Origin: Lytechinus variegatus
Taxonomy: Eukaryota > Echinodermata > Echinoidea > Temnopleuroida > Toxopneustidae
Length of the DNA: 64,000 nucleotides
NCBI RefSeq assembly: GCF_018143015.1
Contig: NC_054751.1
Coordinates: 24,132,425 to 24,196,424, forward strand
Reading direction: 5' to 3'
Below the pieces are notes generated by a model. The model searched no databases. It was not told the origin of the DNA and saw only the letters and a list, made by a program, of their open reading frames with translations. Positions within the stretch are counted from its first letter, which is position 1; every line of letters starts with the position of its first letter. Of this stretch, positions 1 to 60,851 are shown piece by piece. Made by a program: the position numbers and the translations under genes.

Positions 1-4
1 ATCT

Positions 5-147
5 GGGGCCTGTTTCATATAGACATGTAAAATGATAAGTGCCTAATTTCTGCAACAACTTCATTAGCCAATGAAATTGATTGATTTCAGTAGCTTTCAA
101 CTGCTATTACAAATTTGTTATAGCAAGTTTTATGAAATGGGCCCCTG
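5..147. mobile_element. Short MITE in the last visible eIF3a intron
   Basis: The ends are near-perfect inverted repeats: GGGGCCTGTTTCATA at the left and TTTATGAAATGGGCCCC at the right, with an AT-rich interior. Structure only; superfamily not assigned. Confidence 0.55.
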
Positions 148-322
148 ATATATTTGGATTCGTTATTGTAAGATTATGTTTATTCAGTGCAAGTTTCCCA
201 TTGACTCACACATTCATGTTGAATAAATGAAATATTGAACACCCATCCACCAGAGAATTACCCTGAAATTGTTCATGGTTTTTACCGTCATCTTACAATT
301 TCAATTTCATTCATTTTCTTAG

Positions 323-1469
323 GCCAAAAGAGATCTGGCGTCCTGTCACTAAGGAAGGAGGTTGGAGGGATCGTGAGAGGCAACGCGAAGAGATGCGTCG
401 TAGGGAGAGCTCTAATCAGGAACCACAAGAAGAACGGGAGGCTCCGCCTCGGGAGCATCCTGATGCGGAACAGCAGGAAACAGCGCCCCCACCGCCAGAG
501 AGAGAAGAGAGGAAAGTTGAGAAGAGTCGCTTTGCCAGCCGTGACATCCGTTACGAGGAAGGTGGAGAGTTTCACCCAGCGACCAAAGAGCGCGAGGAGA
601 GGCTTGCCCGAGAGGCGGCAGAGGAAGCGGCACGTGGGCAAGGTGCAAGGGATGAGGTAGAGATCCGAAGGCCTGCCAGCCGAGACATCCGTCTTGATGA
701 ACCTGATGGCTTCCGTGATAAACACGAGCACTCGTATCAGGATGACCGTAATAGAGGTGAACCGAGCGAAGATAGAGGCCCCTGGAGAAGGTCAGATGGC
801 CCATCTCGGGATCTAGGTCGTCCTGGACGAGACTTTGGTCGCCGCGATGAGGGTCCGAGGTCTTACAGTCGTGATGATGGGCAACGAGGAGGCTTCGGAG
901 GAAGAAGAGATGATGGTCAACCAGCAAGAGATTTTGGCCGGAGAGAAGATCGTTGGGGAAGAGATGGTGGACGCGATGGAGATGACAGAAGTAACTGGAG
1001 AGGAGGTGGTGGTCAATCAAGAGGTGGATATGACAGACCTCGTAGGGATGATGATGGAGGAGGAGGAGCATGGAGAAGCAGCCGTGGTGGTGATCGTGGC
1101 GGCTATGGCGGTGACCGAGGTGGAGATCGTGGAGGGTATGATCGCGGTGGTGATCGCTATGGTGGCGACCGAGGCGGTGGCCGCTATGGTGACCGTGGGG
1201 GTGACCGTTATGGTGATCGTGGAGGTGACAGGTATGGCGGAGACCGAGGTGGTGATCGTGGTGGATGGCGCAATGAAGACCGTGGTCCAAGGTCCGAGCC
1301 ACGAAAGGATTTCCAACGTCCAATGAGAAACGAGGATAGACCACGAGGGGAGGAACAAACCTGGCGAGGGCGGGGTGGAGATAAAGGTGGCGATCGAGGT
1401 GGTAACCAGCCAAGAGCTGAACCTCAACGAGAAACCGAAGAAGATGGGTGGACCACTGTCAGGCGTTAG
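323..1469 (+). CDS. EIF3A: eIF3a C-terminal exon (translation initiation factor 3 subunit A), 3' end of gene
   Basis: eIF3a is the scaffold subunit of the eIF3 complex, which acts on 40S ribosomes in the cytoplasm during translation initiation. The visible exon opens after a TTCTTAG acceptor and reads [20 protein letters not shown], matching the tryptophan-rich WRP..K.GGWR.. stretch near the end of animal eIF3a, and it stops with [10 protein letters not shown], the characteristic eIF3a C-terminus. Between these lie an acidic and basic low-complexity region, two copies of an ASRDIR.(E/D)E motif (about 535 and 675), and a long Gly-Arg-Asp tract of DRGG, GGDRYGG and RGG units (about 1070-1270). 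Vertebrate eIF3a has DDDRGPRRG-type decapeptides in this tail, so the composition here differs while the ends are conserved. The start is the splice site, not a methionine. The rest of the gene lies upstream of the window. Identity is confident; the exact exon start is well supported by frame. Confidence 0.92.
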
Positions 1470-49003: not shown

Positions 49004-50339
49004 AGCCCCAGTCACATATAGACACGGATCCTCACGGATCAACACGGCAATGCCGGCATGATCTGGGGACGTCCGGGATAGTTTTGCCCCGGATGACTGT
49101 AAACACGGCATCAACACGGCAGCTTCACACGGATCTACATGGACCATGCCGGCGGAGCACGTCGTCAACACGGACCGACACGTCAGCAACACGGACCTAC
49201 ATGTCAGCTACACGGACCAACACGTCAGCAACACGGACCAACACGTCAGCTACAAGGACCAACACGGACCAACACGTCAGCTACACGGACCAACACGCCC
49301 AACACGTCAGCAACACGGACCAACACGTCAGCTACACGGACCAACACGTCAGCTACACGGACCAACACGTCAGCTCAAGGACCAACACGGCAGCTATATT
49401 GACCAGCACGGCAAATGAAAATCTGTTCATAACAATGAGCTGATATTTATTTAATTATTTATATATTTATCTATTTATACGGTTTTTTTTCTCATCCTTG
49501 TCGCAACATTATCATGTTGTGTTTAAAAAAAATATCAAAACTTCCTTAACCAGTAAAAACGCTGTTTTTTATACAACAAAGTTTACTGTTTTAACAGTAG
49601 TTGTTAAGTACTTAAAATCTTGAACGACAAATGTAATTTCGATTTGATTTGATATCACTTCATTGAAATCACAATAAAGGAAAGAAATTTACAAAGTCAA
49701 TAGAAAACATGATAAAAATTAAGATAGGCCCAGGTCATATCGCATAACTGTCGATGCAGGGCAGTAGTATAAAACTTAATGTACAATTTCGATGTAACAG
49801 GTACATAACATATACATATAAAATATTTTTTTTAATGAAATGTGAAATAATAATAACAAACAGAGTTGGGGTAAATATTAGAAAAAAGAGAAAGAATTAT
49901 TCATACATGCACTAAGTTTACAAATATTAGGTTGGGGCCAATCTCCAAAGCGTAAGAAAATATCCTGAATCATTTAATCATCCATTTAAATAAATTAAGC
50001 ATGTTTGTGTCAACTGTTTAACAGCTACTGAAAAGTTCATAAAGTAAATAGCGTTGTAATGATTTGATGGGAAAAAAGAACACGGACTGCCAAGGATACT
50101 CCAGGCAGCCACACGGACCTACACGGACCATCCCGGATGGCTTTGCCAACCCGGCAGTCCACGGATGACGCCGGATGTTTTTGACAGTCAAAAACTGCCG
50201 TGTTGGCCTCCCGAACGTTCAAGGACCAACACGGACCACCCCGGACCCCCAAGGATGCCCAAGGCGCCAACACGGATCTCTCCCCGGACCACCCCGGATC
50301 AGATCCGGGATGGTCCGGGGTCTATATGTGACTGGGGCT
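49004..50339. mobile_element. 1,336-bp TIR element with TTA target duplication and 21-bp array
   Basis: The left end AGCCCCAGTCACATATAGAC and right end GTCTATATGTGACTGGGGCT are perfect 20-bp inverted repeats flanked by TTA (49001-49003 and 50340-50342). A 3-bp TTA duplication is typical of PIF/Harbinger transposons. Both arms are made of CACGGACC/AACACGG words; the left one contains about ten units of a 21-bp repeat (CACGGACCAACACGTCAGC) at 49135-49400. The reading frames over the array are repeat artefacts. Confidence 0.75.
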
Positions 50340-54400: not shown

Positions 54401-54517
54401 GCAATTTACAAAAAAATGTCATGCAGGTATGGAAGCTTAAAAGTGCCACCGAGATGTTGAGATAATTATCTCGGGAAGTCGACATCTTGATAGCAAAAGA
54501 TAAGATGACGAGATCTT

Positions 54518-55360
54518 GGATCTCATCATGTCGACATCTTTTAGAAGAGATGATGAGATGACAAGATCCTGGATCTCATCATGTCAACATCTTTTAGAAG
54601 AGATGATGAGATGACAAGATCCCGGATCTCATCATGTCAACATCTTTTAGAAGAGATGTTGAGATGACAAGATCCCGGATCTCATCATGTTGACATCTTT
54701 AAGAAGAGATGATGAGATGACAAGATCCCGGATCTCATCATGTTGACATCTTTTGGAAGAGATGATGAGATGACAAGATCCCGGATCTCATCATGTTGAC
54801 ATCTTGTAGAAGAGATGATGAGATGACAAGATCCTGGATCTCATCATGTGACATCTTGTAGAAGAGATGATGAGATGACAAGATCCTGGATCTCATCATG
54901 TTGACATCTTTTAGAAGAGATGATGAGATGACAAGATCCCGGATCTCATCATGTCAACATCTTTAGAAGAGATGTTGAGATGACAAGATCCCGGATCTCA
55001 TCATGTTGACATCTTGTAGAAGAGATGATGAGATGACAAAGGCCTGGATCTCATCATGTTGACATCTTTTGGAAGAGATGATGAGATGACAAGATCCCGG
55101 ATCTCATCATGTTGACATCTTGTAGAAGAGATGATGAGATGACAAGATCCTGGATCTCATCATGTTGACATCTTGTAGAAGAGATGATGAGATGACAAGA
55201 TCCCGGATCTCATCATGTTGACATCTTGTAGAAGAGATGATGAGATGACAAGATCCCGGATCTCGTCATGACGACATCTTTTAGAAGAGATGATGAGATG
55301 ACAAGATCCATGATCTCGTCATGTCGACATCTTTTAGATGAGATGATCTGACAAGATGCT
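54518..55360. repeat. 53-bp satellite, left arm
   Basis: Exact 53-bp steps (GGATCTCATC at 54518, 54571, 54624 and onward), about 16 units. Every unit contains ATCTCATCAT and ATGATGAGAT, a 10-bp inverted pair, so each monomer could fold by itself. Confidence 0.85.
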
Positions 55361-56179
55361 TGCACCTGCACGCATTAACACCGACAGGAAGTTGGTTGAT
55401 ATTCGATATTCAAACTGTGAAGTTGGGTCGATATTCAAACGCGTGTGAATTTGGTTGATTTTCGAAATTCAAAATTAGGGGCTTTCAAAGCTAAATAGGG
55501 GAGTTTAACAGGTGCAGCACATCTCGGGCAACCATAAATACACTGGCTTGCCCTAGTACGAGGACATTTAGGGGACAAGGTCAGTGAAGAAAAGTGCATG
55601 AGATTTTTAAAAAAAATTTTCGAGGGACCCCTAGGGATATCCCGACGGCTTAGCCAGGGTAACCACGTATCTTGACTTGTAGAACTCGACTCGGGCAACC
55701 AGATAAACACTAGCTTTACCCGGCGCATGCACATTTAGGGGGCTCAAATTAACAAAATTAAAGGGAATAAAGGGCTATTTAGAGCATCTTTTTTAATTTA
55801 AAAAAGTATATTTTTTTCAAAGGGCCCCCAGAGATATCCAACGGCCTAGCCGGGGCAAACAGGCATCCTAACTTGTTGAACGTGACCCGTGCAACCAGAT
55901 AAACACTAGCTTGATCAGGTGTATGCGCATTTTGAGGGCTAAAATTAACTAAAATAAAGGAATATTGGGCTATATCAAGCATTTTTTATATTAATAAAGT
56001 GATTTTTTTTAAGTGGCCCCCCAAGATATCCAAACGGCCTATAGCCGGGACAACCAGGTATCCTAACTTGTAGATCTTGACCCGGGCAACCAGATTTGCA
56101 CTAGCTTCATCTGACGCATGCAAATTTTGGGGGCTCAAATTAACAAAATTAAAGGAATATAGGGCTATTTCAAGCATGG

Positions 56180-57930
56180 GGAACCACGGTCCTGACTTTT
56201 TCCCCATCCCTTGGTACCGCCAATGGGTACAGTAAAAAAACAAGGAAAGATAGAAAAAAAGAGAAAGAAGCGAAAGGGGGAAATAGGAAAGAAAGGGGGG
56301 GGGGGGGGGGAAGGGAGAGAAAGGAAAGGGAGAACTGATGGGTTGATCGTATCATTGTATGAACAGGATATTTTATAATCATGCCCCGAGCATAAGGGCG
56401 AAGCTCAATGCGTGATAAGGACAAAAAAGAGAGGACACACCATGGCGCACGCAGCAAAAATTTGCTTCATAATAAATCTCAGGCGAGCGAAGTGAGCGAG
56501 ACAAAAAATCACCTTTAACTTTGAGATTGATTTTGACATGGTATGCAGAAAATGACATCATATTTTTTTTTGGAGGGGGGGAGTGCTATGCGGATCGGGT
56601 CCGGGGCAATGATGGCACCAAGTTTTTTAACCTAGGAGGAGGAAAAACAAACATTTTGGGGCCGGGGGTGGTGACACACAATTTTTTAAAAATCGAGTGA
56701 GGAGCTCGAAAATGTAGTCCCTATACTGAATTGAAAAGGGACCTGTTAAGGATTAGCTGTTTGCATTGATCGGGTCATAAAGATGATATCTCACCAAATA
56801 AATAATGCAAGCGCGAAGCGCGAGCTGAAAATTTTTGATATCCGGGATGATACCTGGACGTTGTAAGCACTTTTTGTAATACTAATCATGAACTGAATGG
56901 CTATCTAATTAGCTGAAACTATTTCATTTATGAAAATTATGAATACGCAGGATATGTATCTCGCTAAAACGAATAATGAAAACTCTAATAACGTATGATT
57001 TTTAAGCCCCATGTGAACAGATAATTTACTTATCTCAATCATTAATAACTGCGAGCGTGTAGCGCGAGCAACATTTTGAATGGAGGACAAAAAATAAAAT
57101 TTAAAGAACAAAAAACATTTTTGGAGAATTATGACGTTTACAACACACTTTTTTCTTCAAATTTCGGGGGGGGGGAACTCACTGGGGCCTCCCCATTCGG
57201 TGGCGCCACTGGTCTGGGGCGGAGCCCCGGAACCTCGTGATATTTTTAAATATTGCAGATGGCCAATTTTTTTATCATATCGCGGGTACATACACCACAA
57301 TTATATTAAGTTCAACGCAGTTCCGGATAATAAACGAAATATGCTAAGGCACGACAACATAGCAAATGTGGAATAATTTGAAAAAGTCGCAAGCGAGCGA
57401 AGCGAGCTAGAAAATTTTGGCCTTTTAAAATGATTTTGAAATTAAATTCTAATTATGTGATAGTCGCTTTGGAAATTTAGTCGATCAATCAATCAAGAGC
57501 TTTGAAATTAGTCACGCGATATTGTCTAAAAGAGACATTTTCGTTCATGAAAGTTTTATTGGAGGGGTATTACTCCTTGCTGGTTAATTGAATTGAAAGA
57601 TACATGCAAAAGAAAATGTCTCATGACAATCATTCAAAGATTAGAGGAGCTTTATACTCATATTTTATATTTTGACAATACGTTTTCTATCGATATACGT
57701 CGACATCTTTTCTCCAAGATATGACGATCTACAACAAAAGGTTAAATATATTCATTCGACCCAACCAATTCTCATTTTTTTTAATTTTGTAAACTGATTA
57801 CAATGAAGAGTATGTGTAATGATTAGACTGATTCTAAAAACAAAGAATGGGCAACCACTAAACATATTTTGTGCAAATAAAAGAAAAATACATGTGTCAC
57901 TCAGCTTTCGGAATATTTTATTGGCGGAGG
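56180..57930. other. Core of the foldback element
   Basis: It holds poly-G tracts (56290, 57165) and GCGAGCGAAGCGAGC / GCGCGAGCTGAAAATTTT words like those of the 46.7-48.2 kb repeat, suggesting that a poly-G element (about 56170-57215) inserted here. No recognisable coding sequence. Confidence 0.45.
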
Positions 57931-58599
57931 AATGAGGACTGAGTATAATAGATTAAGATCTGCTCATGAGATGCTTTACCGAGTTGCCCCCTTAATGTGC
58001 ATGCACCGGGTCAAGCTAGTCAAGCTAGTGTTTATCTGGTTGCCCGAGTCGAGTTCTACAAGTAAGGATACGTGGCTACCATGGCTAGGCCGTCGGGATA
58101 TCCCTGGGGCCGGCCTCTTGAAAAAATACTTTTTTTAGTTAAAAAATGCTCTAAATAGCCCTTTATTCCCTTCAATTTTGTTAATTTGAGCCCCCTAAAT
58201 GTGCATGCACCGGGTCAAGGTAGTGTTTATCTGGTTGCCCGAGTCGAGTTCTACAAGTTCAGATACGTGGTTACCCTGGCTAAGCCGTCGGGATATCTCT
58301 AGGGGTCCCTCGAAAAAAAAAATCAAAAATTAAAAATTTCATGCCCTTTTATTCACTGACCTTGTCCCCTAAATGTCCTCGTAATAGGGCAAGCCAGTGT
58401 ATTTATGGTTGCCCGAGATGTGCTGCACCTGTTAAACCCCCTATTAAGCTTTGAAAGCCCCTAATTTTTAATATCGAAAATTAACCAAATTCACTAGCGT
58501 TTGAATATCGAACCAACTTCACAGTTTGAATATCGAAAATCGAATATCAACCAAATTCCTGTCGGTGTTAATGCGTGCAGGTGCAAGCATCTTGTCAGA

Positions 58600-59170
58600 T
58601 TATCTCATCTAAAAGATGTCGACATGACGAGATCCGGGATCTTGTCATCTCATCATCTCTTCTAAAAGATGTCGTCATGACGAGATCCGGGATCTTGTCA
58701 TCTCATCATCTCTTCTAAAGATGTCGACATGATGAGATCCGGGATCTTGTCATCTCATCATCTCTTCTAAAAGATGTCAACATGATGAGATCCAGGATCT
58801 TGTCATCTCATCATCTCTTCTACAAGATGTCAACATGATGAGATCCAGGATCTTGTCATCTCATCATCTCTTCTACAAGATGTCAACATGATGAGATCCG
58901 GGATCTTGTCATCTCATCATCTTTTCCAAAAGATGTCAACATGATGAGATCCAGGCCCTTGTCATCTCATCATCTCTTCTACAAGATGTCAACATGATGA
59001 GATCCGGGATCTTGTCATCTCATCATCTCTTCTAAAAGATGTCAACATGATGAGATCCGGGATCTTGTCATCTCAACATCTCTTCTAAAAGATGTTGACA
59101 TGATGAGATCCGGGATCTTGTCATCTCATCATCTCTTCTAAAAGATGTTGACATGATGAGATCCAGGATC
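58600..59170. repeat. 53-bp satellite, right arm (inverted)
   Basis: The reverse complement of the left-arm satellite, about 11 units, with the same internal dyad. Confidence 0.85.
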
Positions 59171-59403
59171 TCGTCATCTTAACTTTTGCTATCAAGATGT
59201 CGACTTCCCGAGATAATTATCTCAACATCTCGGTGGCACTTTTAAGCTTCCATATGCAGGGGCGCTTTTGCACTTAAGTGTTTATTTACGTATATTGCTT
59301 GGTTTGCATATAGGTCGACGTGATCTTCACATACTCTAATCATTATAATAACAAATCTGATACAGCTACATGATCAGGGATACTGGACTATTTACGTGAC
59401 ATA

Positions 59404-60851
59404 TGTTACAACCGATAATGTCGCACCAACGCATTATGTCGTAGATTGCGACATTTATATGCCAAGAGCGTCCGATGCTTAACATTGCATAATGTCGCAG
59501 TCAACGCATATTGTCGTAGTTTTTCTAACGCATAATGTCACATGTCGCAACGCATAATGTCGTGCTGGCAGTGGTATTTTCTTCAGGACTCGAACTACAG
59601 ATAAGATATAAAATATGCTTTCACTAAGTATTTTGAGACACGAGAAAGAGAATTAAGTGATACGGAAATCAGGATAACTCTTTGTGTATGGATATTTATC
59701 GGTTTATTGCCATTTCGTCTACGATCAGTTAGTCAACTATCAACATAACCAGTCCAATAACCATTTCGTCTAATTACCATCTTGTCTAATAGCCAGTTGG
59801 TCTAATAGCCGTTATGTTTATTATCATTTAGTCTTTCAATTTGTCCAATATCATTACGTCTATTACCTTTTGATGTAGTAGCCAGTTGGTCTATAATAAC
59901 CACTTGGTCTACTCTCATTTCGTCATTGTTCCATTTGGTCTAACTTCAGTTGGTTCGTTATCACTTTGTCTAAACCCATTTCGGCTAACAATCATTTGGT
60001 ATCGTTGCCATGGATGCAATCACCAATAGGTCCAATCACCGGTTCTAGCTCAATTACCTCCCGAACAATCACCTTCTGAACTACTATCCCCAGAAAACTA
60101 CCCCGAGGACAATTACCCCTAGACAATTACCCCGGACATTTACACCCTGAGGACAATTATCCCCTGAGGACAATTACCCCCGAGGACAATTACCCCCACT
60201 TACCTACCCCAATTGTTACCCGAAATGGGTTAAGACAAAGTGATAGCGAACCAACTGAAGTGAGACCAAATGGAACATTGACGAAATGAGAGTAGACCAA
60301 GTGGTTATTAGACCAATTGGCTACTACATCAAAAGGTAATAGACGTAATGATATTGGACAAAGTGGATATTGGATCAACTGAAAATAATTGGAATTAGAC
60401 TATGATAATTAAAAAACCGGCTATTAGACCAACTGGCTATTAGACAAGATGGTAATTAGACGAAATTGTTATTGGACTATGTTGATAGTTGACTAACTGA
60501 TCATAGACGAAATGGCAATAAACCGATAAATATCCATACACAAAGAGTTATCCTGATTTCCATATCACTTCATTCTCTTTCTCGTGTCTCAAAATACTTA
60601 GTGAAAGCATATTTTATATCTTATCTGTAGCTCGAGTCCTGAAGAAAATACCGCTGCGGCATTATGCGTTGCGACATGTGACATTATGCGTTGACAATTT
60701 GCTACGACATTATGCGTTGCGACATGTGACATTATGCGTTAGAAAAACTACGACATTAATGCGTTGACTGCGACATTATGCGTCGGACGCTCTTGGCATA
60801 ATGTCGCAATCTACGACATTATGCGTTGGTGCGACATTATCAGTTGTAACA
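59404..60851. mobile_element. 1,448-bp foldback element built of ACGCATAATGTCG repeats
   Basis: TGTTACAACCGATAATGTCG at the left and CGACATTATCAGTTGTAACA at the right are inverted copies, and the arms stay complementary for about 600 bp. The outer domain repeats ACGCATAATGTCG-type words. The middle of each arm (GATATTTATCGGTTTATTGCC) is unique, and the inner domain repeats GGTCTAATAGCCAGTT-like words. The spacer (about 60010-60220) has CCCGAGGACAATTA repeats. The target duplication is unclear. Confidence 0.75.

Follow-up and report, generated by a model that had tools for sequence, protein, structure and literature searches.

The window, a stretch of 64,000 nucleotides from Lytechinus variegatus (NCBI RefSeq assembly GCF_018143015.1, contig NC_054751.1, positions 24,132,425 to 24,196,424 of the forward strand), contains a foldback element of 4827 bp at 54428-59254 with the ends TATGG..CCATA (Table 1). 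From the outside in, each arm is composed of a 72-bp tip, a 53-bp satellite, a layer of approximately 290 bp and 195-bp modules, and the first 422 nt of the arms from the tips are 97% complementary. Long terminal inverted repeats (TIRs) with internal tandem repeats constitute the foldback layout, which is a structural class and not a lineage. An earlier sequence-only reading of the window had described arms of three layers, namely a tip, the satellite and the 195-bp module. Satellite and modules are both present and the arms are indeed layered, but the approximately 290-bp layer between them is a fourth. The left tip includes a 14-bp perfect palindrome, GAGATAATTATCTC. In the core there is no open frame of at least 150 codons, and 9 open frames scanned in the core and adjoining sequence (21 listed, at least 45 codons) gave no Pfam match.

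Table 1 Anatomy of the foldback element in window coordinates
Feature	Position	Strand	Remark
Left target-site duplication (TSD), TGCAGG	54422..54427	.	same letters at 59255-59260; one copy in three empty sites
Left TIR tip, 72 bp, TATGGAAGCTTAAAAG...	54428..54499	+	72/72 identity with right tip
Left arm satellite, 53-bp unit, 16.1 copies	54499..55347	+	
Left inner arm layer, ~290 bp	55348..55635	+	inverted match at 58293-58598, 89%
Left 195-bp modules, 2.8 copies	55636..56177	+	
Core without recognised coding sequence	56178..57983	.	Pfam scan of open frames
Right 195-bp modules, ~1.6 copies	57984..58297	-	matches in L031 (the window element)
Right inner arm layer	58293..58598	-	inverted counterpart of left layer
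Right arm satellite, 53-bp unit, 10.9 copies	58602..59179	-	
Right TIR tip, 72 bp, terminates CCATA	59183..59254	-	
Right TSD, TGCAGG	59255..59260	.	

Directly beside the foldback element, at 59568-60657, lies a second inverted-repeat element with 180-bp arms (97%); sequences related to its arm occur at numerous genomic positions (40 scored of 486 candidates). Elsewhere in the window, a 21-bp tandem repeat of 11.4 units (49158-49394) is found inside a 161-codon open reading frame, and a 358-codon RG-rich open frame (393-1469) presumably resembles a SERBP1/HABP4-type gene, judged by eye.

The ends of the element were set at 54428 and 59254 because T precedes ATGGAAG in 49 of 50 tip listings (which include L010 and L011, showing the same three tips), a base that the search did not require; the exception is one tip of L022. 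T is also the first base in all 29 pairs fetched from contig C1, which were selected by an exact tip pattern. Among lengths from 2 to 12 bp, the flanks of the window copy agree exactly at 6 bp only, as TGCAGG. The sequence-only reading had recognised a real element, but had placed it at 54421-59261 between 8-bp flanking repeats identical at 7/8 positions. This imperfect repeat arose because one base too many was counted per side, the T and A next to the tips being part of the element, and it is replaced here by the perfect 6-bp duplication.

A search of the assembly (869.6 Mb, 33 contigs) with a 22-base tip pattern, allowing up to 2 mismatches, gave 1801 matches, 896 forward and 905 reverse. 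The same pattern read backwards gave 0 + 1, hence the abundance of tips is not due to chance. The first 100 listed tips, all exact and all on C1, form 32 adjacent pairs of 449 to 3435 bp and leave 36 tips unpaired; 29 of the 32 pairs span 1265 bp or less. Sampled copies of this size class are hairpin-like short forms that read tip, 5-10 satellite units, 6-12 inverted units, tip, with almost nothing between (one side of L023 has 3 units), and their arms are 93-98% identical to each other in 13 copies. Long copies have the same anatomy as the window copy. Genome-wide, a 33-mer of the core (up to 3 mismatches) occurs at 44 places, an inner-layer 33-mer at 88, and a satellite pattern has 8676 matches. 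The idea that the 53-bp unit resides mostly in free satellite arrays was rejected on the basis of 100 exact satellite places listed among the 8676 matches, all of them on C1 and none further than 781 bp from a listed tip. One family copy (L004, ~1-1000, minus strand) has a transposon-like sequence, recognised by eye, inserted in its satellite; it starts CAGTGGCGGATCC, which we take to be a hAT-like tip.

Target-site duplications were evaluated for 29 C1 tip pairs in map order, that is, the 32 adjacent pairs without two inside nested clusters and without the L003 pair, which itself has an exact 6-bp duplication. An exact 6-bp duplication is seen in 24 of the 29; the other five comprise two of 7 bp, one of 11 bp and two with none, and duplications of 8, 9 or 10 bp are absent (0/29). 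Mis-paired flanks, used as a control, never agree at 6 bp (0/812). When loci were picked by similarity, 11 of 16 testable pairs were exact at 6 bp (a 17th lacks a left flank), with one mismatch in L023 and disagreement in L012, L014, L022 and L029. The 11-bp case of the map-order set is the copy formed by L130 and L131 (C1:57140256-57141169), which has an exact 11-bp flanking repeat instead of 6 bp. In the 24 exact pairs, at positions chosen post hoc, G/C is found two bases outside the duplication in 22 (left) and 19 (right) cases, and the central two positions of the duplication hold A/T in 22 and 21, a weak indication of a symmetric target preference S-N-[NNWWNN]-N-S.

Empty sites give the same duplication length. 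When the two flanks of the window copy are put together around a single TGCAGG, the composite has three matches elsewhere on its chromosome, with 96, 94 and 89% over the junction; all three read ATGTCATGCAGGGGCGCT, with a single TGCAGG and no element. The check on an empty allele proposed earlier, carried out here on these paralogous copies, thus bears out a single site, as one TGCAGG and not as the predicted 8-bp ATGCAGGK. The three recurrences of the flanks (C12:24203382, 24220520 and 24245092) are downstream of the window, share one orientation with the locus and are 89-96% identical to it; the locus is thus apparently one member of a segmental duplication series in this region, and the element entered one copy. 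On C2, a long copy recorded as both L007 and L032, which their coordinates identify as one element, has inserted into the tip of another copy and duplicated that tip's TAAAAG. The family is mobile and duplicates 6 bp of target.

These results bear on two other explanations of the locus. An inverted duplication of local origin, flanked by repeats through chance and favoured by nothing beyond the window copy itself, is refuted by the 1801 dispersed tip matches, the target duplications and the empty paralogous sites, and its probability is negligible. A foldback of TU type or Mutator/FB type, making 8- to 10-bp duplications, would account for the tandem-repeat arms, which resemble those of FB, Tetris and TU, and the authors of the Tetris study suggest Mutator for that element (PMC4079207). 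Such duplications are refuted by the C1 pairs and the empty sites, and together with the ends TATGG..CCATA this makes a foldback of these types very improbable. The earlier reading of a foldback transposon with satellite arms is supported, given dispersed copies, target-site duplications and empty sites, and the many genomic copies that it predicted exist, with duplications of 6 and not 8 bp; its likening of the element to TU is not supported, the duplication being 6 bp and the ends TATGG..CCATA as in IS3EU.

The element is probably a DNA transposon of the cut-and-paste kind, non-autonomous and of IS3EU/GingerRoot type, in which the satellite-armed foldback layout evolved independently. The superfamily call rests on the ends and the duplication length because a transposase-bearing partner was not found. 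Another superfamily capable of 6-bp duplications, whether a hAT6-like lineage, a Polinton-derived one or an undescribed one, is improbable, since hAT and Polinton ends differ from TAYGG..CCRTA. Such ends are instead those of a set of rust-fungus IS3EU families, which also have 6-bp TSDs and TIRs >30 bp (PMC12730594), and TA..TA ends and, as a rule, TSDs of 6 bp characterise complete IS3EU families, with which GingerRoot is grouped (PMC10045372). In favour of another superfamily, TSDs of 6 bp are known from hAT6 families (PMC12730594) and from Polintons (PMC10045372), and no transposase was found to decide. With IS3EU/GingerRoot the window family shares the 6-bp TSD, the TA..TA ends (here TATGG..CCATA) and a TIR of 72 bp, that is, >30 bp as in the fungal families; it differs in its 53-bp satellite arms and layered modules and in that no transposase was found for it.

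The search for an autonomous partner, limited to rva_4, IS481 and rve_3 profiles and to loci with widely spaced inner layers, produced no transposase match that could be placed between the family's tips. The PF24764 (rva_4) profile gave 35 matches, and within 1.5 kb of 30 such loci (L051-L080) there was no family tip, satellite, inner layer or module. Scanning these loci and the 9.9-kb L081 for TAYGG..CCRTA gave one pair, with 15/24 tip bases alike and flanks agreeing at 2/6; L081 has a 207-codon frame that matches rva_4 and appears by eye to be a gene split into exons. With NF033577 (IS481), 65 of 1386 candidates were scored, and 58 of the 65 matches lie in open frames >700 codons, as LTR retrotransposons have. 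With PF13683 (rve_3), 150 of 604 candidates were scored; open frames >700 codons account for 38 of the 53 matches.

Widely spaced inner layers were found at C12:24230921-24239352 (8.4 kb), which is without the core 33-mer and was sampled in three 571-bp pieces. Two of the pieces are open over 190 codons, one with a weak RVT_1 match (E 2.7e-5, below the curated cut-off) and the other with no Pfam match; by eye the three pieces read as a LINE, so a nested insertion is most likely. This further family copy sits between the second and third downstream recurrences of the flanks of the insertion (24220520 and 24245092). At C10:4641911, C15:28864753 and C9:18132374 the inner layers are widely spaced and the core 33-mer is present, which suggests nested insertions. 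At C5:5958462 the inner layers are closely spaced and the core 33-mer is absent.

The family is young. Twenty cores differ by 0.76% on average (range 0.06-1.49%, substitutions only), a value biased downward by the choice of cores, which were the 20 ranking highest against the window copy of 40 scored out of 1943 candidates. Where the left tip had been read as well, the long copies among these 20 have left satellites of 4 units (L034) to 18 (L038 with L002). Arms thus change by whole 53-bp units between copies and, set against a core divergence of 0.76%, unit number changes fast relative to point mutation. Homogenisation of the arms at each insertion is weakly disfavoured, given that over 300 bp the arm identity is 0.964 on average within elements and 0.988 between elements, the latter favoured by being the best of four. 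Aligned with the satellite unit, the tip scores 18, compared with a mean of 10.2 (SD 2.06) for shuffled sequences, of which 4/1000 reach 18; gaps are needed in the alignment, tip and unit alike have low sequence complexity, and the resemblance is suggestive but not strong. The 53-bp unit holds a 13-bp palindrome with an unpaired centre, which, together with the 14-bp palindrome of the tip, would fit a putative dimeric binding protein.

We propose that the transposase is supplied in trans by an IS3EU-type element, as an IS3/IS481/retroviral-integrase-like DDD/E enzyme that would bind the tips and cut with a 6-bp stagger at S-N-[NNWWNN]-N-S sites. The satellite may have been born when a segment of subterminal TIR was duplicated again and again, and its present gain and loss of whole units would be due to slippage or unequal exchange. 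The transposase, or an accessory protein, may also bind the added units, and the short hairpin-like copies, without inner layers and core, would be the main amplification product. A broader proposal, which we consider possible and on balance unlikely, is that an IS3EU system independently evolved satellite-armed foldbacks whose 53-bp arrays serve as additional sites at which the enzyme, or an accessory protein, can bind. Mobility would then depend on arm length, and hairpins that are short and consist almost entirely of arm would have displaced the long forms in competition, so that they now make up most of a family of approximately 1800 tips.

In the parts of the literature covered by our search, IS3EU and foldback co-occur only through the word foldback in a reference title, and the family may already be catalogued in Repbase or Dfam. 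Two oyster satellites, CgiSat35 and CgiSat47, carry the label DNA/IS3EU in a table seen without its column heading (PMC8268682), so a link between IS3EU and tandem repeats may not be unprecedented. According to the account that accompanies Tetris (PMC4079207), repeat-armed foldbacks generally go with Mutator-type transposases, although there are exceptions. If the reading is true, a young and abundant foldback family of IS3EU type would mean that the same layout has arisen convergently under an unrelated, retroviral-integrase-like enzyme, and such convergence would suggest that repeated subterminal sites are generally advantageous. The family lends itself to tests of TIR satellite growth and of whether such satellites influence mobility, since its copies diverge little and vary in unit number and empty paralogous sites are at hand.

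Among known foldbacks, the TU elements of sea urchins are similar in having long inverted arms with a repeated outer domain. They differ in unit size (approximately 15 bp, compared with 53 bp here) and in their 8-bp TSD (6 bp here). Galileo of Drosophila is a member of the P superfamily with a 7- to 9-bp TSD. Like FB, also of Drosophila, it has tandem repeats inside its TIRs, which in Galileo hold extra transposase binding sites; it differs from the window family in its THAP-domain transposase (cited in PMC4079207). Tetris of Drosophila virilis shares with the window family a tip domain, a tandem-repeat domain of variable unit number, an inner domain and a middle that looks non-coding. Also comparable are that Tetris has its ends in common with a MITE (DAIBAM) and that its repeats may derive from the tip domain. 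Tetris differs in its approximately 220-bp units, its 8-10-bp TSD and its 3 structurally complete copies (PMC4079207). The Tetris repeats also form satellite-like arrays, whereas the 100 listed satellite places of the window family are all near tips.
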